Positions 2,553 to 32,360 of a stretch of 33,555 nt of DNA are shown one piece after another. This DNA is from a virus, in IMG/VR virus record IMGVR_UViG_3300033141_004948, positions 1 through 33,555 of that record, one strand, 5' to 3'. A program made the position numbers and the translations under genes. Under the pieces are notes generated by a model. That model saw nothing but the letters and a program-made list of their open reading frames with translations, did not search any database and was not told where the DNA came from. Every line of letters begins with the position of its first letter. Position 1 is the first letter of the stretch.

Positions 2553-3308
2553 ATGAGCGTTTATCCAAATTTTGAGGTTGGGCACATAGTTGTTAATTCT
2601 GATTCTTATGTTGGGAAGGTTGTTAAGGTTAATCAAAAGACTGTCAAAATAAAAATAATAAAAGCAGGAAAAATAAAAGAAGAAAATTGGGATAAAAATT
2701 GTGTAAGATTTGCTGAAGATTATGAAGAAAAAGATTATAATAATGATTTTGAAGAAGTGAATAAAGTTTATGGAACAAGCCCACTTGCAAGCTTTGAAGA
2801 AAACCCTTTAGGTTATGCATTGAGTGAACAGGTTAAATCAATTTTATTTCTAAAGTGCAAAAAGGAAGAACAAGCAATTATTAAATTTATTCAAAACAAT
2901 GTAATGATGCATAGAAAAGAAGGAGAAGATGGACCTCATTTTGAAGTAGAATATAATCATCCAAAAGGAACTTTTATGTGGGCCGTTGAACAAATGAAAC
3001 AAGGTAATAAAGTTAGTAGAAAATTATGGGAAGGTAATTATATTTGCAGGTCAAAAAAAACTATTAATTTGATAATCTATAAAGATAAAAATTTATTTAT
3101 GACTGGAATATGTGATATTGAAGCAACTGATTGGGAAATTTTTGAAGAGGATATTACATTTTTTAGAGGAGAACCTCAAGGAGATCCAATATTAGAATTA
3201 AGAAAAAATGGAACACTTTTTATTAAAGGAAAATTAGTGGATGTTGATAAAGATGTTGTTGAATATATGAGAAAAATATTATCAGAAACATTATACACCA
3301 ATAAATAG
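2553..3308 (+). CDS. Three-part protein with Tad2-like (DUF2829) domain
   Basis: A 251-residue protein made leaderless from a class 2 promoter. Residues about 1-45 (FEVGHIVVNSDSYVGKVVKV) look like a small SH3/KOW-type barrel. The middle, about residues 138-200, matches the DUF2829 pattern: GTFMWAVEQMKQGNKVSRKLW near its start and ATDWEIFEE at its end. The C-terminal segment (ILELRKNGTLFIKGKLVDVD) resembles a short domain common in phage accessory proteins. DUF2829 includes Tad2, which sequesters the gcADPR signal of Thoeris defence; anti-defence activity here is inferred. It sits between minor head and protease genes under its own promoter, an accessory insertion in the head module. Domain assignment is by eye. 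Confidence 0.6.
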   Translation: MSVYPNFEVGHIVVNSDSYVGKVVKVNQKTVKIKIIKAGKIKEENWDKNCVRFAEDYEEKDYNNDFEEVNKVYGTSPLASFEENPLGYALSEQVKSILFLKCKKEEQAIIKFIQNNVMMHRKEGEDGPHFEVEYNHPKGTFMWAVEQMKQGNKVSRKLWEGNYICRSKKTINLIIYKDKNLFMTGICDIEATDWEIFEEDITFFRGEPQGDPILELRKNGTLFIKGKLVDVDKDVVEYMRKILSETLYTNK

Positions 3309-5991: not shown

Positions 5992-6006
5992 AGAAAGTTT
6001 TAAATA
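5992..6006 (+). promoter_or_regulatory. Class 2 promoter (glycosyltransferase)
   Basis: AGAAAGTTTTAAATA begins 36 nt before ATG 6028, and the start reads ATATGTATG. Same box, spacing and start sequence as at 2517. Confidence 0.8.
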
Positions 6007-6027
6007 TAGTTTTACATAATTATATGT

Positions 6028-7902
6028 ATGAAGATTATTACTATGGCCACAGAATCTTATATCAATTGGCTTTATCATTTCTTATCGTCGGTAAAAGGAG
6101 ATGTTGTTGTTTATAGGATTAATTTTTCTGATAAAACTAAAAGAATAATTGAACAAGAATTTCCAAATGTGATTTTTAGAGATTATGAAACAGATCTTAA
6201 ATTACATGAAAAATGGAATCCACTTGGGAAAGTTTTCAAGGTCACATATCTTAAAGGCCTATTTTGTAAACATGCTTTTGAAGAGTTCCAGGAGAAAATA
6301 TTGTGGAGTGATTGTACTGAATTAATTTTAGGAGATCTAAATGATTTTGAAGATAAGTTTGGGCCCAATGGATTTAGAATAAATAGAGGGGGAACTCGAG
6401 ATAATAAAAAAACCTTTGCTGCATTATTTGGATTATATGGAAAAAGAGAAACTCAAAAGTTTTATGAATTATGCACAGAGAATAAAGATGAATGGTTTAG
6501 TGATCAAGTTGCTTTAGGAAAATTAGATTTAAAAGAGATCTCTCAAGGAGATTGGATAAGTTTTGATTATGATGAAAATGCAAAGTCCTGGTCTGATAGA
6601 GGAGAAACAGGGGGTGGTAAAATAACTGTTTCTGATTATGGATTTACCGAAGATAAATATATTGATAAGATTAATGGGATTAATATTATTAATAATATTC
6701 ATAATATAAATATTATTTCTTATCGAGAGAGATTTGAAAAGTTCATGCAGAAATTAAAGGTCCCAACAATTCTTGTGCATACTGATGATCCAAATTGGTG
6801 TTATGTAAATTCTACAAGGAAGGTTGCAGAGATGCTAAAAGATGATTTTGATTTTAAATTTATTTATGTTGCAGACAAACAGCGAGAAGAAATATTAAAT
6901 TCTAATCCTGATCTTGTTTGGGCCAGGTGTTCAAGTTTAAGAAATAAAAAGATATTAACTTCCAGGCCAGATCTTGCAAGAAAGAGTTTTACTTCAATTA
7001 CAACAGGGGGAGAATTACTTGATAATCGAGTTGGAAGAAATATAAATAATTTAACTGAAGCAGGATTAATTGTTCAAAATAAAGAAGCTGCAGTTTTATC
7101 AAAATATTACCTGGATAAAAGAGATGTTAAAAAACCTATATTTTTACTTCCAAATGGATGTGATACAGATTTATTTAAACCAGTAGAGAAAGATAAATTT
7201 ATTGTGGGATGGAATGGCCGGGCTGCAAGTGCTGAAGAAAGAAAAATTAAAGGATATGATTTTTATAAAAAGTCAATAGAAATCTTAAAATATAAAACTC
7301 TTGAATTAAATGGCAAGAGTAAAATTCCTTTTGAAGATCTTCCAAAATTTTATGATCAAATAAGTATTATGGTTTTGCCTTCAAATTGTGAGGGTTGTTC
7401 GAATACAATAAATGAGGCCCTTGCAAGTGGGGTTCCAGTGTTAGCATTTAAGTGTGGTTGGCATGGAGAAGTCTGTGAAGAATTTGATGATGGGATTCTT
7501 TGGATTGAACGTAATATAATGGATATAACAGCAAAATTGAAATACCTTAAAGAAAACCCCTATTATCTTAAAAAGATGGCTCAGAATGGACGTCTGTTTG
7601 CAGAGAAGCATTCCTGGCGTAATATGGCTGATAATTATAAGGAAACTTTCAATAAAATGATAGATTATATTAAAACTCTGCCAGAAGAAACAATAAAACC
7701 TTTTGTTGTTAAGCCAAAAATACCAAGAGAATATGTTAAAGTTAGGGCCTTACAAAAAGTTAATCTTGGAAAATTAGAAAAGAATGGAGCTGTTATTTGG
7801 TTTGAAAAAGGGATGGAGAGAACAGTGCCCTATCATGATGTATGTAAACAGGTGATTGATATTAATGTTAAACAAAGATTTCTCGAGATTGTTAATAATT
7901 AA
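6028..7902 (+). CDS. Two-domain glycosyltransferase
   Basis: A 624-residue protein with two apparent transferase units. Residues about 1-220 look like a GT-A-type nucleotide-sugar transferase: ILWSDCTELILGDLNDF (around residues 91-107) sits where the metal-binding D-x-D segment is found. Residues about 236-555 are a GT-B, GT4-like transferase: LLPNGCDTDLF, VGWNGRA, and EGCSNTINEALASGVPVLAF with the E-x7-E pair (E455, E463) that contacts the sugar nucleotide. The C-terminal 55 residues are extra and basic. It sits alone with its own promoter between capsid and connector genes, suggesting it glycosylates virion proteins. With the sulfotransferase, methyltransferase and UDP-glucose dehydrogenase at 27747-29882 it may build one glycan. 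Acceptor unknown. Confidence 0.8.
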   Translation: MKIITMATESYINWLYHFLSSVKGDVVVYRINFSDKTKRIIEQEFPNVIFRDYETDLKLHEKWNPLGKVFKVTYLKGLFCKHAFEEFQEKILWSDCTELILGDLNDFEDKFGPNGFRINRGGTRDNKKTFAALFGLYGKRETQKFYELCTENKDEWFSDQVALGKLDLKEISQGDWISFDYDENAKSWSDRGETGGGKITVSDYGFTEDKYIDKINGINIINNIHNINIISYRERFEKFMQKLKVPTILVHTDDPNWCYVNSTRKVAEMLKDDFDFKFIYVADKQREEILNSNPDLVWARCSSLRNKKILTSRPDLARKSFTSITTGGELLDNRVGRNINNLTEAGLIVQNKEAAVLSKYYLDKRDVKKPIFLLPNGCDTDLFKPVEKDKFIVGWNGRAASAEERKIKGYDFYKKSIEILKYKTLELNGKSKIPFEDLPKFYDQISIMVLPSNCEGCSNTINEALASGVPVLAFKCGWHGEVCEEFDDGILWIERNIMDITAKLKYLKENPYYLKKMAQNGRLFAEKHSWRNMADNYKETFNKMIDYIKTLPEETIKPFVVKPKIPREYVKVRALQKVNLGKLEKNGAVIWFEKGMERTVPYHDVCKQVIDINVKQRFLEIVNN

Positions 7903-19510: not shown

Positions 19511-19532
19511 AAGATATTACATATTAATATGT

Positions 19533-23818: not shown

Positions 23819-24038
23819 AATTTGTAAGAAATGTGGGAAAAGAGAGATGAAGAGAACATACAAATCTCCTTATTGTAGAGAATGTCAGGGCTATTTAGGA
23901 TCTAAAAAAGCTCAAGATAAAAAAAGGGAAAATAATTTATGTTTAGATTGTGGGAAACCTGCAAAAAAGAAGTTATGTCCTCATTGCAATAAAACAGTTA
24001 AATTTTATAGTAGATGTGAAAAGTGCTTAAAAAAATGA
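23808..24038 (+). CDS. Multi-zinc-ribbon protein
   Basis: A 76-residue protein with five C-x-x-C pairs: CKKC, CREC, CLDC, CPHC and CEKC, enough for two zinc ribbons and one further half-site, in a basic context (KKAQDKKRENN). Such compact ribbons bind DNA, RNA or RNA polymerase. ATG 23808 overlaps the previous gene by 11 nt; an in-frame GTG at 23799 is an alternative start. It directly precedes the TBP-like gene, so a transcription role would be coherent but is only an inference. Confidence 0.7.
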   Translation: MPIRICKKCGKREMKRTYKSPYCRECQGYLGSKKAQDKKRENNLCLDCGKPAKKKLCPHCNKTVKFYSRCEKCLKK

Positions 24039-24364
24039 AAAATAAATTAAGAATAACAAACATGATTTTTTCTGGGAGAATGCCTTTTAAGAGAAAATTA
24101 AAAACAGAAGAAGGAGATAAACTTGTTTTTAGATTTAACTGGCAGTGGATAAATGAAGAAATATCTCCAATTATTTCAAAAAGAATGAAGATAAGAAAAA
24201 TTAAAAAGTTGAATGTTCATGGAAAAATAAAACAACCTTATGTTTCAATTTGGTGTTCTGGGGCTATTAATATTGTTGGAGTTGTAAATAGGAAAGAAGC
24301 AAATCAAGTTTATGATTTAGTGATTAAAGATTTAAAGAAAATTAGTAGGACCTTATTAAAATGA
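24035..24364 (+). CDS. TBP-fold half-size protein (candidate)
   Basis: A 109-residue protein that looks like one TATA-binding-protein repeat. It starts with LRITNMIFSG (as in the I-x-N-I-V-A-S start of a TBP repeat), has a basic middle, and ends with YVSIWCSGAINIVGVVNRKE then a long helix (ANQVYDLVIKDLKKI), matching the TBP 'F-x-SG-x-[IM]-x-x-[TV]-G-x-x-[SN]-x-E-[ES]-A' signature. True TBP has two such repeats (180 residues); this has one and would need to dimerise. TBP-like folds also occur in RNase HIII N-termini, so function is open. It overlaps the zinc-ribbon gene by ATGA. Confidence 0.5.
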   Translation: MKNKLRITNMIFSGRMPFKRKLKTEEGDKLVFRFNWQWINEEISPIISKRMKIRKIKKLNVHGKIKQPYVSIWCSGAINIVGVVNRKEANQVYDLVIKDLKKISRTLLK

Positions 24365-26238: not shown

Positions 26239-26692
26239 GTTGATTGTAGAAGAACCTGCTAAGAGCAGACTTCAAAGACATGAGTGTCCGTCGTGTGGCC
26301 TGCCTAAATCTAAATGGAAAAGAAGAAAAGATTGGAGATGTTGTTCAGTAAAATGCTCTACGGCCTGGTATAAATCACGTGTTTTATTTGGGTGGCCTGA
26401 TTTAAGGATGGCTGCATTTAAGAGAGATCATTTCAAGTGTGTAAAATGCGGAAAAATGCCGATGCAAGATTCAAATAGAAAAGGCCAAAGAAGAAAACCA
26501 AATACAAGTGCATTAATTGGAGATCATATAATTCCAATTTCTATTGGGGGCCCACAATGGGATATAAATAATGTTCAAACTCTTTGCATACCATGCAATA
26601 AAATTAAAACAGCTCAAGATTATAAAGATATTGCAAGGCAAAGAAGAAAAGAACAGCAGTGTGGGGTAAAGGTTCGCCCGTTGGCCCCATAA
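26216..26692 (+). CDS. HNH endonuclease with zinc finger
   Basis: A 158-residue protein. An N-terminal zinc-finger-like part (HECPSCGLPKSKWKRRKDW, then CCSVKC) is followed by an HNH domain with CVKCGK, GDHIIPISIGG (D103-H104) and NVQTLCIPCNK. The zinc Cys pairs and D-H give the metal site. Its last 13 codons lie inside the tRNA-Met, with the stop codon in the anticodon loop, an unusual overlap. It may be a homing-type nuclease linked to the tRNA, or a nuclease for packaging or host DNA. Being within the early operon rather than in an intron favours a replication or packaging role. Confidence 0.75.
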   Translation: MIKRESYRLIVEEPAKSRLQRHECPSCGLPKSKWKRRKDWRCCSVKCSTAWYKSRVLFGWPDLRMAAFKRDHFKCVKCGKMPMQDSNRKGQRRKPNTSALIGDHIIPISIGGPQWDINNVQTLCIPCNKIKTAQDYKDIARQRRKEQQCGVKVRPLAP

Positions 26693-26726
26693 GCCAGAGA
26701 TCCAGGTTCGATTCCTGGCATTGCTA
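26655..26726 (+). tRNA. tRNA-Met (CAT), initiator-like
   Basis: A 72-nt cloverleaf: acceptor AGCAGTG/CATTGCT (one G-U), T8, D-stem GGGT/GCCC, anticodon stem TTGGC/GCCAG with loop CCCATAA (anticodon CAT), a short variable region, T-arm CCAGG/CCTGG with TTCGATT, discriminator A, and no CCA encoded. The A1-U72 pair, the TGGGGTA D-arm start and CATAA resemble archaeal initiator tRNA. Odd points: C33 in place of U33, and only two of the three G-C pairs in the initiator's lower anticodon stem run the usual way. The 5' half overlaps the end of the HNH gene. Confidence 0.85.
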
Positions 26727-26731
26727 TTTTA

Positions 26732-26747
26732 AGAAAGATTTAAAAAA
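26732..26747 (+). promoter_or_regulatory. Class 2-type promoter
   Basis: AGAAAGATTTAAAAAA begins 37 nt before ATG 26769, and the start reads AATATGTATG. A new transcript therefore starts just after the tRNA. Confidence 0.7.
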
Positions 26748-26768
26748 GAAACATACATAAAAATATGT

Positions 26769-27428
26769 ATGGAAGATATTAAGATAAATGAAAAGGATGG
26801 AAAGATAACCCATTCTGTTACTTCTACACACAATGAAGATTCTTTAATTGAAAAATATAGAAGAGATTACATGGCCTATAAAATTCAAGAAGCTAAATTA
26901 CAAAAACTTCCTGATATGATTGAAGGAACAAAAATGTATATTAAAATTTCTGAAACAACAGTTGAGATAAATGATGCTAAGCAAGAAAGAATCAAAGAGA
27001 TCTTAGACAAATTAGATTTAGATATTAAAGCAAAAATTAAAGAGATCAAAGAAAAATATTCTGAAGAAGATTTATTGAAGCATGCAGAAAAAATAAATGC
27101 TGAAACTAATGTTAAAATTGTTAAAGAAGGATCTAATTATATTATGAAAACAGAATTAACTCAAACAGTTGAAGATCTATTAATTGAATTGATGAGCTTA
27201 CAAGATGAAAAGCCAAGACTTCTTGAAAGATTAGTTAAACAAAATCAAGTTCTCACAAAATATGAATCAAGCAAACCAGAGTTAGAAAGTAGCTTAGAAG
27301 AAATAAAACAAAGATTAACTAAAATTAAAATATTCTTTGCAGGCCAACATAAAAATATTGATAAGCTTTTAGATGTAAGAGCTCAAGCAAGAAAGAATAA
27401 AGATAAAATTGCAGAGAGTGGAAAATAA
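26769..27428 (+). CDS. Coiled-coil protein, unknown
   Basis: A 219-residue protein that is almost wholly helical and charged, with long heptad-like stretches (QERIKEILDKLDLDIKAKI, ELLIELMSLQDEKPRLLERL, LESSLEEIKQRLTKIKI). It has a disordered acidic start and a basic end, and no membrane segment or Cys. Similar coiled coils in phages are scaffolds or regulators. It is driven by its own class 2-type promoter and precedes an AbrB-like protein by two bases. Function not recognised. Confidence 0.6.
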   Translation: MEDIKINEKDGKITHSVTSTHNEDSLIEKYRRDYMAYKIQEAKLQKLPDMIEGTKMYIKISETTVEINDAKQERIKEILDKLDLDIKAKIKEIKEKYSEEDLLKHAEKINAETNVKIVKEGSNYIMKTELTQTVEDLLIELMSLQDEKPRLLERLVKQNQVLTKYESSKPELESSLEEIKQRLTKIKIFFAGQHKNIDKLLDVRAQARKNKDKIAESGK

Positions 27429-27430
27429 AA

Positions 27431-27562
27431 ATGAAAAAAGAATTTACTGCAACAGTGAGAAAGAACAAAGCAAATAATCATAAATATATTACAGTGCCAA
27501 GAGAGATCCCAATTGAAACAGGGGATGAAGTTGAAGTAAGAAAAAAGAGGAAAAGAAAGTGA
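27431..27562 (+). CDS. 43-residue AbrB/MazE-like DNA-binding protein
   Basis: A short, basic frame two bases after the previous stop. FTATVRKNKANNHKYITVPR followed by IPIETGDEVEVRKK fits the swapped-hairpin (AbrB/MazE) half barrel with its [IV]-T-[VI]-P-[KR]-x-[IL] and G-D-x-V-x-V segments. It would dimerise and bind DNA. It overlaps the next gene by GTGA. There is no toxin-like partner nearby, so a regulator is more likely than an antitoxin. Confidence 0.65.
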   Translation: MKKEFTATVRKNKANNHKYITVPREIPIETGDEVEVRKKRKRK

Positions 27563-27747
27563 GTGCTGAAAAGAAACTCCAAGATTCAATAAATTATGTA
27601 AATGGTTTAACTTGGAAAGATTATTTTAATAATTTTAAAAATAGAAATTGGAAAGAATTTTTAGGCATCTCAAGTTGGAAAGGATATTTGGGATGGATTG
27701 TTACACTTTTAATTATATTATATCTGATTGATAATGGTGGTTTCTAA
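27559..27747 (+). CDS. Small membrane-anchored protein, GTG start
   Basis: A 62-residue protein starting at GTG in a GTGA overlap with the AbrB-like gene. The first 40 residues are polar and aromatic (NGLTWKDYFNNFKNRNWKEF), followed by one membrane span (YLGWIVTLLIILYLIDNGGF) at the end. This tail-anchored plan fits a membrane recruiter. Its last base overlaps the ATG of the methyltransferase (TAATG), so it might localise the glycan enzymes; that is only inference from order. Confidence 0.55.
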   Translation: MSAEKKLQDSINYVNGLTWKDYFNNFKNRNWKEFLGISSWKGYLGWIVTLLIILYLIDNGGF

Positions 27748-28451
27748 TGATAATTATTCCTGAAGCTCTGCCTCTTGCAAAATTACAAAGAACAGCTATG
27801 AATCAAAAGCAGATGATTAATTCTTATGGGGCCGATTTTGATAATGTTATAGATAATGCTACTTGTGGAAAAGATTTTAAAATTTTAGATATTGGTTGTG
27901 GAATTGCAGGGTGGCAATGTTTTTTAGAAAAAGGAGAGAAGATCTATTTAATTGATAAAACAAAGGTAGATGAGAAAGTTTATTATGGTTATCAAAAAAA
28001 GACTGCCTTTTATAATTCTATGAAAATTGCTAAAAAGAATTTAATAGCAAATGGAATAAAAGCAGAAAAGATATTTATGCAAGAAGCAAATAATAAAATT
28101 CAATTTGGTGTAAAATTTGATTTAATTGTTAGCTTTATTTCTTGTGGTTTTCATTATCCTGTTAAAACTTATTTAAATCAAATTTATGAAAAGCTTGAAG
28201 AGGGGGGGACTTTGATGATTGATATAAGAAAGGGAACTGATGGTGCTTCAAAAATTAAAAATCTTTTTGGAAATATTTCTGTGATAAAACAAGAAAATAA
28301 ATATCTTAGAGTGAAGGCTGTAAAACAAGAAAAAAGGGTTGGGATGGGAGATGATACAAAAGACCCTTCTGAAAAATTAGAAATTTATAGCTCTGGAAAT
28401 GTAGGATTGAATAGTGTTAATCCTTCTGAAAAACTCAATATAATACAATGA
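27747..28451 (+). CDS. SAM methyltransferase with fibre-like tail
   Basis: A 234-residue protein. Residues about 30-200 are a class I methyltransferase: FKILDIGCGIAGWQCFLEKG binds AdoMet, FDLIVSFISCGFHYPV and LEEGGTLMIDIRKG follow in family order. Residues 206-234 are two copies of a fibre-type repeat, DPSEKLEIYSSGNVGLNSVN and PSEKLNIIQ, like the G-I-G-T-x-x-P-S-E-x-L repeats in the tail fibre at 16140. The next gene (sulfotransferase) starts in an ATGA overlap. By context it may methylate a sugar or hexuronic acid, as archaeal AglP does, but substrate is not shown by the sequence. Confidence 0.7.
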   Translation: MIIIPEALPLAKLQRTAMNQKQMINSYGADFDNVIDNATCGKDFKILDIGCGIAGWQCFLEKGEKIYLIDKTKVDEKVYYGYQKKTAFYNSMKIAKKNLIANGIKAEKIFMQEANNKIQFGVKFDLIVSFISCGFHYPVKTYLNQIYEKLEEGGTLMIDIRKGTDGASKIKNLFGNISVIKQENKYLRVKAVKQEKRVGMGDDTKDPSEKLEIYSSGNVGLNSVNPSEKLNIIQ

Positions 28452-29056
28452 TTCTTCCACAAGTTTTTGCTGCAGGATTTCCAAGATGTGGGACTACATG
28501 GATTGCAAGAATGTTAAATCAACATCCAGAGATTCATGCACCAATGAAGAAACATCCAAAATATCCTTACCTTGTAAAAAAAGAGATCCATTATTTTAAT
28601 AAATGCCCTTCAAATTTAAATGAACCGGACAGTGAGAATTTAGGGTTTAAAAGAAACATAACAGATTATACACATTTCTTTGCTTATGATAAAATAAATA
28701 TTGATTTTTCAATTTGCAGTGCTTATGATCCTGGTGCAGCAGAAAGAATAAAAGAGATCTTAGGGAATGTTAAAATATTATTTTTTATAAGAAATAAAAA
28801 AGACCACAAAGAATCATTAAAAGTTTTAATTAGAGAAGAACCAAAAGATTATCTTATAGAAATTGCACCTGTTCTTGAACATTATATGAAATGGTTTTCA
28901 GAAGTGAAAGTGATCAATCTTGAAGATACAAAAGAAAATCCAAGAGAGATTTTAAAGAAGATTTTAATGTTTATTGGGGTTAAGGATATTGATTTCAAAT
29001 TTGATTTATCAGGTTCAAAACATTCTAAAGAGGAGATCTTAAAATACAATGGATAA
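28448..29056 (+). CDS. Sulfotransferase
   Basis: A 202-residue protein with the PAPS-binding loop GFPRCGTTW (residues 10-18), KKEIHYFNKC, the 3'-phosphate motif VKILFFIRNKKDHKESLK, and a C-terminal part (NLEDTKENPREILKKILMFIG) typical of carbohydrate sulfotransferases. At 200 residues it is short (usual length 250-300), but the central motifs are complete. It would transfer sulfate from PAPS to a sugar. It is flanked by a methyltransferase and a UDP-glucose dehydrogenase-like gene with overlaps on both sides, so a joint glycan pathway is strongly suggested. Substrate is inferred. Confidence 0.85.
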   Translation: MILPQVFAAGFPRCGTTWIARMLNQHPEIHAPMKKHPKYPYLVKKEIHYFNKCPSNLNEPDSENLGFKRNITDYTHFFAYDKINIDFSICSAYDPGAAERIKEILGNVKILFFIRNKKDHKESLKVLIREEPKDYLIEIAPVLEHYMKWFSEVKVINLEDTKENPREILKKILMFIGVKDIDFKFDLSGSKHSKEEILKYNG

Positions 29057-29882
29057 AAAGATTGCAGTTATTGGATATGGATATGTTGGAAAAGCAATGA
29101 GTGAATTATTAACAAACAGATATGATATTGATGTTTATGATCCTGCATTAAATATTGGCCAAGTTACAAAAAGACTTCCTGATGAAAGAATGACTTCTAT
29201 TTCAAGGTTAGAACAAAAAGCAAAGAAATATGATTTAGCTGTAATTTGTACTCCAACACCAATGCAAGAATCTGGAGAATGTGATATAAGTTATGTTTTA
29301 GATGCAGTGAAAAATACACATTCAGATCTATATTTAATTAAATCAACAGTGGAACCAGGAACAACAGAAACTTTAAGTAAAATTACAGAGAAGCATATTG
29401 TTTTTAGTCCGGAATATGTTGGAGAATCTCAATATTATAATTCTTATTTTCCTGACAAAATGATTGAAACACCTTTTCATATTTTTGGTGGAGCTAAAGA
29501 AGACACAAGTCAAGTAATAGATTATTTACTTCCAATCTTGGGCCCAGATAAACAATATTTTCAAATGACTGCAAAAGAAGCAGAGATCGTGAAATATATG
29601 GAGAACACATTCTTTGCAACTAAAATAACTTTCTGTCAAGAGATGTATGATATATGTAATAAAGTTGGTGCTGATTGGAACAGTGTAAGAGAAGCATGGC
29701 TTGCAGATCCAAGAATAAATCCAATGCATACTGCAGTGTTCAAAGATGATAGAGGATTTGGTGGGAAGTGTTTACCTAAAGATACAAATGCTTTAGCTGA
29801 GTATGCAAGAAAAAATAATGTAGAACCAATATTGCTTGATGCAGTGTTAAAGAAAAATAAATCAATTAGGAAATCTGAATAA
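29049..29882 (+). CDS. UDP-glucose/nucleotide-sugar 6-dehydrogenase, short
   Basis: A 277-residue protein. KKIAVIGYGYVGKAMSELL is the NAD-binding Rossmann start, AVICTPTPMQESGECDISYV and LIKSTVEPGTTE follow as in UDP-glucose dehydrogenases, then ENTFFATKITFCQE with Lys192 and GFGGKCLPKDTNAL with the catalytic Cys241. It ends soon after, lacking most of the C-terminal UDP-binding domain found in full enzymes (390-450 residues); the same short form exists in other phages. It should make a UDP-uronic acid by two oxidation steps with NAD. It overlaps the sulfotransferase gene by 8 nt and fits archaeal N-glycan uronic acid synthesis (AglM type). Confidence 0.85.
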   Translation: MDKKIAVIGYGYVGKAMSELLTNRYDIDVYDPALNIGQVTKRLPDERMTSISRLEQKAKKYDLAVICTPTPMQESGECDISYVLDAVKNTHSDLYLIKSTVEPGTTETLSKITEKHIVFSPEYVGESQYYNSYFPDKMIETPFHIFGGAKEDTSQVIDYLLPILGPDKQYFQMTAKEAEIVKYMENTFFATKITFCQEMYDICNKVGADWNSVREAWLADPRINPMHTAVFKDDRGFGGKCLPKDTNALAEYARKNNVEPILLDAVLKKNKSIRKSE

Positions 29883-30163
29883 TGGGTGGAAGTGGAGAAT
29901 CAATTCATTTAACATTTAAGAAGTTGCCAAAAGAAAAAGGGCATAAGTTACATAAGTATAAAGTTCACAACATAAATTATAGAGCTGATATTGGTGTTAT
30001 TCATTGGAGAGGAAGTTGGAGACAATATGTTTTTCAAGCACACCCAGAAATAGACATGAGCAGAGGTTGCCATAAACAGATAGATAAATTCATTGATAAA
30101 TTAATGGATGGTTGGAAAAAAAGAAAGGCCCCCCTGCAACCCCCCAAAGAAAAGGGTGTATGA
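29882..30163 (+). CDS. Small conserved phage-type protein, unknown
   Basis: A 93-residue protein with YRADIGVIHWRGSWRQYVFQ and HPEIDMSRGCHKQIDKFIDK, a pattern common in small phage proteins of the form 'G-x-I-x-W-x-x-x-W-R-Q-Y-x-F-x...D-x-x-C-x-x-x-I-x-x-F-x-x-x-L', whose role is not known. It starts at the last base of the previous gene (TAATG overlap). The final 20 residues are Lys/Pro-rich. It is the last gene before the ParB-methyltransferase fusion, and may be a regulator or nucleotide-binding accessory. Confidence 0.6.
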   Translation: MGGSGESIHLTFKKLPKEKGHKLHKYKVHNINYRADIGVIHWRGSWRQYVFQAHPEIDMSRGCHKQIDKFIDKLMDGWKKRKAPLQPPKEKGV

Positions 30164-30184: not shown

Positions 30185-31441
30185 ATGGAAAAAATAAAAA
30201 TAACTGAATTGAAACCATATAAGAAAAATCCAAGAAAGAATGATGGAGCTGTAAAAATGGTTAAGAAATCTATAAAGGAATTTGGTTTCAGAAATCCAAT
30301 ACTAATTGATAAAGATAATGTAATTATTGCAGGGCATACAAGATTGAGAGCTGTTAAAGAATTGAGAGAAAAATATGGAGATGAATTTAAAGAAAAAAGA
30401 AAAGATTTTGATGCAGAAGGAAAACCCTATGAATATGAATTTATTTTAAATTTAAAAGAAGTTCCATATATTAAAATTGAAGATCTAACTCCGGCACAAG
30501 TAAAAGCTTTTAGAATTATGGATAACAAGAGTGCTGAATTTGCAGAGTGGGACACAGACTTCTTAAAAACAGAATTTGAAGATTTGGACGGTGAGGGATT
30601 TAACTTAGAGATGACAGGATTTGATTCAAAAGAAATCGGAGAAATATGGGAAGATGGCCTGGAAGTAAAGGAAGATATTGTTGCAGTGGATGCTTATGAA
30701 AGAGCCAAGAAAAAAACAAAAATAAAACAAGGAGATATTTACCAGTTAGGAGATCATAAATTAATGTGTGGAGATTCAACAGAATCAAATAATGTAAATA
30801 GACTAATTGATAAAAATAAAGTAGAGTTACTTTTAACAGATCCCCCTTATGGAATTGATATTGTTGGAAAAGGCAAATCTGGATTTAAAGGTGGAAGAGA
30901 GATTGGAGTAAGCATGCTTGCAAAAGCAGGGAAATATCAACCAATGAAAGGAGATGATAAGCCCTTTGATCCAACATTTTTATTACAATATGGGAAGATA
31001 CAAATAATTTGGGGTGCAAATAATTTTGCCTCAAAACTTCCAGATAATTCTCACTGGTTAATATGGGATAAAAAATGTGAAAAGGGAGCAGACCACAATA
31101 ATTTTAGTGATTGTGAATTAGCCTGGACAAATGTAAAAAGAAAAGCTACAAGGATTTACAGATATTTATGGAGTGGATTATTAAGGGAAGGCAAGAGGGA
31201 AGAAGAATTAAAAAAGAGAGTGCATCCAACACAAAAACCAGTAGGCTTAATGGCAGAAATAATAAAAGATTATGCAAAGGAATCAGTTTTAGATTTATTT
31301 GGGGGCAGTGGAACTACTCTTATTGCATGCGAACAATTAAATAGAAAATGCTTTATGATGGAAATAGATCCTGTGTATTGTCAGGTTATAATTGACAGGT
31401 GGGAAAAATTTACAAAGAAGAAAGCTAACAAAAGTAATTAA
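30185..31441 (+). CDS. ParB-like nuclease domain fused to DNA methyltransferase
   Basis: A 418-residue protein. Residues about 1-110 are ParB/Srx-like: PYKKNPRKNDGAVKMVKKSI, PILIDKDNVIIAGHTRLRAV. Residues about 190-410 are a beta-class N6-adenine or N4-cytosine methyltransferase: LLLTDPPYGIDIV (D219-Y222, catalytic), WDKKCEKGADHNNFSDCELA, HPTQKPVGLMAEI, and VLDLFGGSGTTLIACEQL (AdoMet). Catalytic motif before the AdoMet motif is the beta order. Such ParB-Mtase fusions are common in tailed phages and give site recognition by the ParB part. Likely role: protection of viral DNA. It is followed by the operator at 31444. Confidence 0.85.
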   Translation: MEKIKITELKPYKKNPRKNDGAVKMVKKSIKEFGFRNPILIDKDNVIIAGHTRLRAVKELREKYGDEFKEKRKDFDAEGKPYEYEFILNLKEVPYIKIEDLTPAQVKAFRIMDNKSAEFAEWDTDFLKTEFEDLDGEGFNLEMTGFDSKEIGEIWEDGLEVKEDIVAVDAYERAKKKTKIKQGDIYQLGDHKLMCGDSTESNNVNRLIDKNKVELLLTDPPYGIDIVGKGKSGFKGGREIGVSMLAKAGKYQPMKGDDKPFDPTFLLQYGKIQIIWGANNFASKLPDNSHWLIWDKKCEKGADHNNFSDCELAWTNVKRKATRIYRYLWSGLLREGKREEELKKRVHPTQKPVGLMAEIIKDYAKESVLDLFGGSGTTLIACEQLNRKCFMMEIDPVYCQVIIDRWEKFTKKKANKSN

Positions 31442-31487: not shown

Positions 31488-32360
31488 ATGGAGAATAAAA
31501 TAAAAATTGCAATTGCAGGGATCCCTAAAGCAGGGAAAACAACTCTTTCTAAAGAAATTTCTAATGGAGAAGTATTTCATACAGATGATTTAATTAAAAC
31601 TAAAGAATGGTCTGCTGCATCTTTAGAAATATCAACCTGGTTTAACAAAGAAGGGCCTTTTATAATCGAGGGTGTTGCTGTACCAAGAGCATTAAGAAAA
31701 TGGCTTAGGGCCCATGAGAAGGGAAAACCTTGTGACAAATTAATATGGTTGAAGAACCCATATATAAAATTATCTCCAGGTCAAGAAACTATGGCTAAAG
31801 GATGCATCAAAGTTATGGATGAAATAAAAGAAGAATTGAGAGGAAGGGGTGTTGAAATTATGAATAAATGGGAAAATACAATGGTTGTTGATGAATATGT
31901 TGATAAGAAAATTGGAGCTCCAACACCTAAAGAGAAATTAAAAATTCGACACAATTCGACACTTTTAAACAAAAAAGAGATTAAGAATATAAAAAATTTA
32001 GTTGGGAAAAAGAAATTTATGATCAATGCTTTGATTTTAAATTTGGGAAATGTTTCTATGGCCTGTAAAAAAGTAGGGATTGATAGACAAACACATTATA
32101 ATTGGCTTAAATCAGATCTTGAATATGTTAAGAGAGTTCTTCATGTGCCTGAAATAACTTTAGACTTTGCTGAAAATGCTTTATTGAAAAATATAAAAAA
32201 GGGAAATGTTGCAGCACAAATATTCTATCTAAAGACAAAAGGAAAAAAGAGGGGTTACATTGAAAGGCAGGAAGTTGAACACATTGGAGATCATGTGCAG
32301 AAGTTTGAATTAGTTGATGTTGATAGTCCTGGAGATGTAAAAAAATTATATGTTAAGTAA
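31488..32360 (+). CDS. P-loop kinase domain fused to small terminase (TerS)
   Basis: A 290-residue protein. Residues about 1-150 look like a small P-loop kinase: IAIAGIPKAGKTTLSKEI is Walker A (G11-T18), followed by FHTDDLIKTKEW and GPFIIEGVAVPRALRKWL. Residues about 178-290 are small-terminase-like: NALILNLGNVSMACKKVGID with RQTHYNWLKSDLEYVKRV is the DNA-binding HTH, then TLDFAENALLKNIKKGNVAA and FYLKTKGKKRGYIERQE, the usual end of this TerS type. Small terminases normally lack the kinase part. It overlaps terL by 11 nt and starts under the operator at 31444. Confidence 0.75.
   Translation: MENKIKIAIAGIPKAGKTTLSKEISNGEVFHTDDLIKTKEWSAASLEISTWFNKEGPFIIEGVAVPRALRKWLRAHEKGKPCDKLIWLKNPYIKLSPGQETMAKGCIKVMDEIKEELRGRGVEIMNKWENTMVVDEYVDKKIGAPTPKEKLKIRHNSTLLNKKEIKNIKNLVGKKKFMINALILNLGNVSMACKKVGIDRQTHYNWLKSDLEYVKRVLHVPEITLDFAENALLKNIKKGNVAAQIFYLKTKGKKRGYIERQEVEHIGDHVQKFELVDVDSPGDVKKLYVK

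Follow-up and report, generated by a model that had tools for sequence, protein, structure and literature searches.

A candidate glycan-modifying gene module with a short nucleotide-sugar dehydrogenase in a small tailed virus with a probable archaeal host

The window, by which we mean the whole stretch of DNA analysed here, is a 33,555-bp virus record with identical 114-bp ends, and because of this direct terminal repeat it is probably a complete tailed-virus genome. Its tailed-virus genes encode a portal, a Mu F-like protein, an S78-type prohead protease, a capsid protein, tail proteins, a fibre and a terminase. The features that concern us are the following:

5993..6027, + strand: predicted class B promoter of the glycosyltransferase gene, BRE/TATA-like GAAAGTTTTAAATA, 35 nt upstream of the start codon (ATG)
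6014-6027, + strand: palindrome ACATAATTATATGT, abutting the same ATG
6028..7902, + strand: two-domain glycosyltransferase (GT), directly downstream of the major capsid gene
26733..26768, + strand: predicted class B promoter serving the operon, with GAAAGATTTAAAA located 36 nt upstream of the 26769 start codon (ATG)
26755-26768, + strand: palindrome ACATAAAAATATGT, abutting that ATG
26769..27428, + strand: first gene of the operon, an ORF with no function assigned; 3 bp from its stop codon to the next ORF
27431..27747, + strand: a pair of short ORFs, of 43 and 62 aa, that overlap one another as well as the methyltransferase gene
27747..28451, + strand: class I SAM methyltransferase (PF05175) of a viral GFHYP-motif family, the family being assigned by motif
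28448..29056, + strand: short (202 aa) PAPS-type sulfotransferase, PF13469 and PF00685 over cut-off, match to 3rnl with E 5e-9
29049..29882, + strand: short nucleotide-sugar dehydrogenase of the UDP-glucose dehydrogenase (UGD) family, without the UDP-binding domain
29882..30163, + strand: small ORF with a 1-bp overlap with the UGD gene and no family match

The cassette of three genes, in which methyltransferase and sulfotransferase overlap by 4 bp and sulfotransferase and UGD by 8 bp, continues a series of ORFs that starts at 26769, with the small ORFs at 27431..27747 connecting the 26769 gene to it. An earlier note on this DNA had described these three overlapping genes and a two-domain GT beside the capsid gene, and both descriptions are borne out, the GT being confirmed as an ORF with a GT4 C-terminal half. 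As for the neighbouring genes, a tRNA-Met (CAT) gene at 26655-26726 overlaps the end of an HNH endonuclease ORF, 30185-31441 encodes a DNA methylase fused to a ParB-like domain, and 31488-32360 encodes a candidate terminase small subunit with an extra N-terminal P-loop (AAA_18-like) stretch.

The C-terminal half of the GT belongs to the GT4 family with a GT-B fold (PF00534, 49 bits against a cut-off of 26.4), with a conserved EGCSNTINEA stretch, and a profile search of structures likewise returns GT4 structures. No Pfam family scores above its cut-off in the N-terminal half (residues ~1-240), which is nevertheless conserved among the homologues. Both halves are homologous to the GTs of the viral loci L104, L120 and L122, with whole-protein E values of 1e-83 to 1e-85 and 34-35% identity to the L104 and L120/L122 homologues.

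The methyltransferase is a class I SAM enzyme, as judged by PF05175 (25.9 bits, cut-off 23) and the motif ILDIGCG, which agrees with the earlier assignment; none of the profile libraries searched assigns it a substrate. Direct protein scans found no members of its family, which was recovered only by a degenerate DNA motif scan (GFHYPxxTY), with a motif-bearing protein in 79 of 80 loci and 14 invariant columns across 16 aligned sequences. The window's protein fits this viral family, defined here by SAM motif I plus SxxSxGFHYPxxTY. Its nearest relatives, in L131 (61% identity) and L132 (56%), are 192-201 aa long and stop where the window's protein runs into a tail-fibre-type motif of ~38 residues (~197-234) that is absent from the relatives. 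The 3' end of the gene (28330-28451) encodes two copies of this tail-fibre motif and matches the window's own fibre gene at 28 of 35 bases, which suggests that the tail is probably a piece of the fibre gene joined on. An AlphaFold model of the methyltransferase alone reached a pLDDT of 35.5 and was discarded.

The sulfotransferase scores 38.0 bits with PF13469 (cut-off 27) and 33.7 bits with PF00685 (cut-off 22), and its motifs are intact, comprising the 5'-PSB loop GFPRCGTTWI, KKEIHYF and a 3'-PB-like IRNKKDHKES. The protein thus carries the 5'-phosphosulfate loop, the 3'-phosphate motif and the Pfam score of the PAPS sulfotransferase superfamily, and the earlier reading of a sulfotransferase with intact PAPS motifs stands, with sugar sulfation as its predicted activity.

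In the UGD, the NAD-binding N-terminal domain and the central domain are present (PF00984, 93 bits; PF03721, 51 bits), and the protein stops after the central domain, the UDP-binding C-terminal domain being absent; PF03720 matches the Rossmann part alone, and weakly (21.8 bits, cut-off 30). The same domain is missing across the aligned viral relatives. The active site GFGGKC and the catalytic residues K182, N186, C241 and D245 are kept, which presumably correspond to K204, N208, C260 and D264 of the S. pyogenes enzyme, and P121, E122, E126, K182, N186, C241 and D245 are invariant in 23 aligned viral sequences. An AlphaFold model made with the alignment of viral relatives has a pLDDT of 89, and its top PDB matches are UGDs, 3vtf being the first (TM-score 0.83 on the query). 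An alignment-derived motif scan returned at least 600 stretches, of which, among those listed, 597 encode relatives, and the best 80 were retained; in the 25 loci measured, three of them from bacterial genomes, the relatives are 245-334 aa long. Phage C48C1, Microbacterium phage Honeyfin and the IMG/VR loci L021-L100 all carry a short UGD without the UDP-binding domain, as the window does, with QSHC replacing the GGxC motif in Honeyfin. Short UGD relatives are also seen in bacterial MAGs (L018, L019, L020), possibly in proviruses, and there WDSHC or WESHC replaces GFGGxC. Judged by these alignments, the short UGD is a member of a large viral family that keeps the predicted catalytic residues and dispenses with the UDP-binding domain. 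The earlier designation as a short dehydrogenase is therefore correct; that as a UDP-glucose 6-dehydrogenase holds for the UGD family and the catalytic residues and does not extend to UDP-glucose as the substrate. With the UDP-binding domain missing, the name remains a putative one and the sugar substrate a prediction.

Two classes of promoter-like elements can be distinguished in the window. AATTAAATATATAA, here called class A, occurs in seven copies against 0.01 expected, each exactly 36 nt before an ATG (sites 107, 7897, 9012, 9520, 11104, 14171 and 15760), mostly before structural genes, and these sites are read, from motif and spacing, as archaeal TATA-type promoters with very short leaders. 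Class B is a BRE/TATA-like motif of the GAAAGTTTTA type, GAAA(G/C)(T/A)TTTA, located 35-36 nt before five starts (2553, 6028 for the GT, 10519, 19533 and 26769). Four of the five class B promoters, with 10519 as the exception, carry in addition the palindrome ACATA-N4-TATGT, of which the window holds four exact copies, all against start codons and with 0.04 expected (2539-2552, 6014-6027, 19519-19532 and 26755-26768, before the starts 2553, 6028, 19533 and 26769). The palindrome is likely to be a viral operator at the transcription start, and the GT gene and the operon are probably co-regulated through it; the tie of the cassette to the GT would presuppose read-through of the small intervening ORFs. 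It has to be noted that a Tad2-like gene and a gene without assigned function have the palindrome before them as well, which is thus not specific to glycan genes. Counts of loose TATA and SD patterns over the relatives proved too weak to use, and the promoter claim is based on the exact motifs in the window together with the upstream sequences of L104 and L122, in which archaeal TATA-like boxes were read.

These archaeal-type promoters lend support to an archaeal host, and the virus is probably a small tailed virus of an archaeon. The earlier note had placed it in a haloarchaeal setting. The GC content of ~30% is unlike that of most haloarchaeal viruses, the proteins are rich in lysine (by eye), and nothing was found in favour of a haloarchaeal host, a reading that we reject on these grounds. 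A search for viral relatives of the capsid protein found none, and the terminase gives distant matches to many bacteriophages that do not tell the host. A protein with a single TBP-like repeat is encoded at 24023-24364 (PF00352, 19.5 bits, under the cut-off of 22.9), and this weak match may point to a viral TATA-binding protein, which would fit an archaeal host. The gene at 2553-3308, with a class B promoter upstream, encodes a Tad2-like domain at residues 140-196 (PF11195, over cut-off), and its product is a possible candidate for an anti-Thoeris protein.

The linkage of these genes in other viruses was examined from the side of each enzyme. A GT homologue adjoins a methyltransferase homologue in L120/L122, L146 and L168 and lies one gene away from it in L104, both proteins being homologous to those of the window; this linkage is independent evidence, since the search had used the methyltransferase motif only. 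In L104 and L120/L122 the pair is found in the head-gene module, like the window's GT, and a presumed capsid gene (no Pfam match) either adjoins it or is separated from it by a single gene. In the window, by contrast, the GT and methyltransferase genes are 20 kb apart and are joined only by the shared promoter element. Neither a UGD nor a sulfotransferase was found in the L104, L120/L122, L146 and L168 records. In L131 and L132 the gene that follows the methyltransferase, directly or nearly so, encodes a terminase small subunit related to that of the window, and in the sequence fragments available no UGD, sulfotransferase or GT was found. L132 also holds a homologue of the ParB-like/DNA methylase gene upstream of this methyltransferase-terminase block. 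The slot upstream of the terminase thus holds a UGD in L002 (a contig that starts within the UGD gene), a methyltransferase in L131/L132 and the whole cassette in the window.

Seen from the UGD, 24 of 50 UGD-bearing records contain a GT4 gene that scores over cut-off, and 14 of the 24 have one no more than 6 kb from the UGD, compared with 8.8 for random positions and a maximum of 15 in 2000 trials. Two loci show the composition of such regions: between terminase and portal, L021 has a deacetylase, a GT, a methyltransferase, the UGD, GT4/GT2 and a further methyltransferase, and the terminase/head-gene region of L127/L184 has two PF03407 GTs, a GFHYP-family methyltransferase and a short UGD. Elsewhere, methyltransferase and UGD lie within 3.5 kb of each other in 3 of 6 records, a closeness that is not significant (P ~0.09) and is not counted. 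These gene neighbourhoods support an assignment of GT, methyltransferase and UGD to a single type of viral glycan module.

The sulfotransferase behaves differently. Of 50 UGD-bearing records, 2 contain a PF13469 protein, and no sulfotransferase exceeds the cut-off in 50 methyltransferase-bearing records, although such absences of partner genes are soft, as many records are fragments. Judged by these counts, the sulfotransferase is sporadic and not a regular partner of either enzyme, and the viral short-UGD loci, often near GTs, are mostly without it, unlike the window. The viral sulfotransferase loci L003-L006 (IMG/VR) lie amid GT-like and NodU-type carbamoyltransferase-like genes (by eye), in L006 near a fibre-like gene; their identity to the window's protein is ~50-54% over the P-loop only, and no UGD or GFHYP-family methyltransferase was noted in them, unlike the window. 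Consequently, the fixed set of four enzymes that the earlier note had implied finds no support in these records, and its expectation that relatives would keep the genes together holds for the GT/methyltransferase and GT/UGD linkages and fails for L131/L132, where UGD and sulfotransferase are missing from the sequence available.

Similar viral sugar sets already exist; what is unusual here is the enzyme for sulfate addition. A metagenome study reports sulfotransferases, glycosyltransferases and nucleotide-sugar dehydrogenases together among viral auxiliary genes (PMC10829341), viruses of methane-archaea with sugar genes have been reported (PMC9723712), and single glycosyltransferases are known from archaeal viruses (cited in PMC10384203). 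In the open-licence literature, no description of the combined set of GT, UGD, methyltransferase and sulfotransferase in an archaeal virus was found. The earlier note had pointed to AglM and AglP as counterparts. The viral UGD, without the C-terminal domain, scores 93 bits with the AglM equivalog model (NF041297), whose cut-off is 670, and no AglP-type family match for the methyltransferase was found in NCBIfam or Pfam; orthology with either finds no support in these profile searches. Haloferax volcanii has AglM as a UDP-glucose dehydrogenase and AglP for the methylation of a hexuronic acid. A likeness in chemistry is offered by the N-linked tetrasaccharide of Halobacterium salinarum, in which two hexuronic acids are sulfated and the terminal glucuronic acid is methylated (PMC11980604). 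Its pathway, with the sulfotransferases VNG1056C and VNG1057C (PMC11980604), is a cellular, haloarchaeal one that acts on a dolichol-phosphate-linked sugar, and the viral set would resemble it in its chemistry, in archaea.

The reading that we favour, and hold to be rather probable, is that the four genes form a virus-encoded and probably co-regulated glycan module, a variant of the known viral sugar sets. It is based on family-level identities, intact motifs, gene overlaps, the shared palindrome and the linkage of GT with methyltransferase and with UGD. In the order of reactions that we infer, the common promoter element would switch on the GT gene and the operon together, the two-domain GT would build or extend a sugar chain, the short UGD would oxidize an activated sugar at C6 to give a uronic-acid donor, and the methyltransferase (with SAM) and the sulfotransferase (with host PAPS, and presumably on the same glycan) would cap or charge the sugar. 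A virion surface protein would be the likeliest acceptor, because in the window, as in related viruses of archaeal type, the GT adjoins the capsid gene, with a host surface glycan as a close alternative; N-glycosylation sequons in the virion proteins do not exceed the shuffled expectation.

That alternative, which we regard as possible though tentative, has the same enzymes act on the host envelope (an S-layer or lipid-linked glycan), where they would block superinfection or keep progeny from re-adsorbing; its probability overlaps with that of the glycan module, since it posits the same module with another acceptor. GT, operon and the Tad2-like (anti-Thoeris-type) gene at 2553 have one promoter element in common that is lacking from the seven class A promoters, mostly of structural genes, and this suggests expression apart from the structural genes, and the sulfated and methylated uronic acids of H. 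salinarum are those of cell glycans (PMC11980604); what argues against it is the location of the GT, which adjoins the capsid gene in the window and falls among the head genes in L104, L120 and L122, together with the UGD/GT cassettes between terminase and portal or head genes. Rather unlikely, in our estimate, is a set of independent cargo genes sharing a hot spot upstream of the terminase and no common pathway. The changing content of that slot (a UGD in L002, and in L131 and L132 a methyltransferase with neither UGD nor sulfotransferase) and the sporadic sulfotransferase are what such a hot spot would produce, yet it would leave aside the methyltransferase-GT linkage in four other loci, the overlapping reading frames and the palindrome common to the operon and the distant GT.

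Modification of viral DNA, with hypermodified bases as the product, was also considered. The DNA of Bacillus phage SP-15 bears a sugar-type hypermodification, for which its UGD and GT may be used, and SP-15 has a UGD, a UTP-glucose-1-phosphate uridylyltransferase and a GT together. Nucleotide modification based on glycosyltransferases or sulfotransferases in phages is reported according to the metagenome study cited above (PMC10829341), and DNA methylase genes are present in the window. However, no base-hypermodification enzyme of the thymidylate-synthase-like or TET/JBP kind is among the 30 window proteins scanned, and the GTs to which the methyltransferase is linked lie in head-gene modules, with no such link to replication genes, which makes this explanation highly improbable. 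At the speculative end of the glycan-module reading, and doubtful in our own judgement, lies the idea of an archaeal tailed virus that decorates its virion or its host with a glycosaminoglycan-like glycan of its own making (uronic-acid, O-sulfated and O-methylated), controlled by a viral operator dedicated to this end. Its minimal dehydrogenase, having no UDP domain, would perhaps not use a free nucleotide sugar and may have as its substrate a sugar linked to a carrier or a protein.

The widespread family of short UGDs raises a question of enzymology, namely how a sugar dehydrogenase works without the UDP-binding domain. Glycans can govern the recognition between archaeal viruses and their hosts, and a compact, co-regulated set for donor synthesis, transfer, methylation and sulfation would let one test whether archaeal viruses write their own surface sugars.
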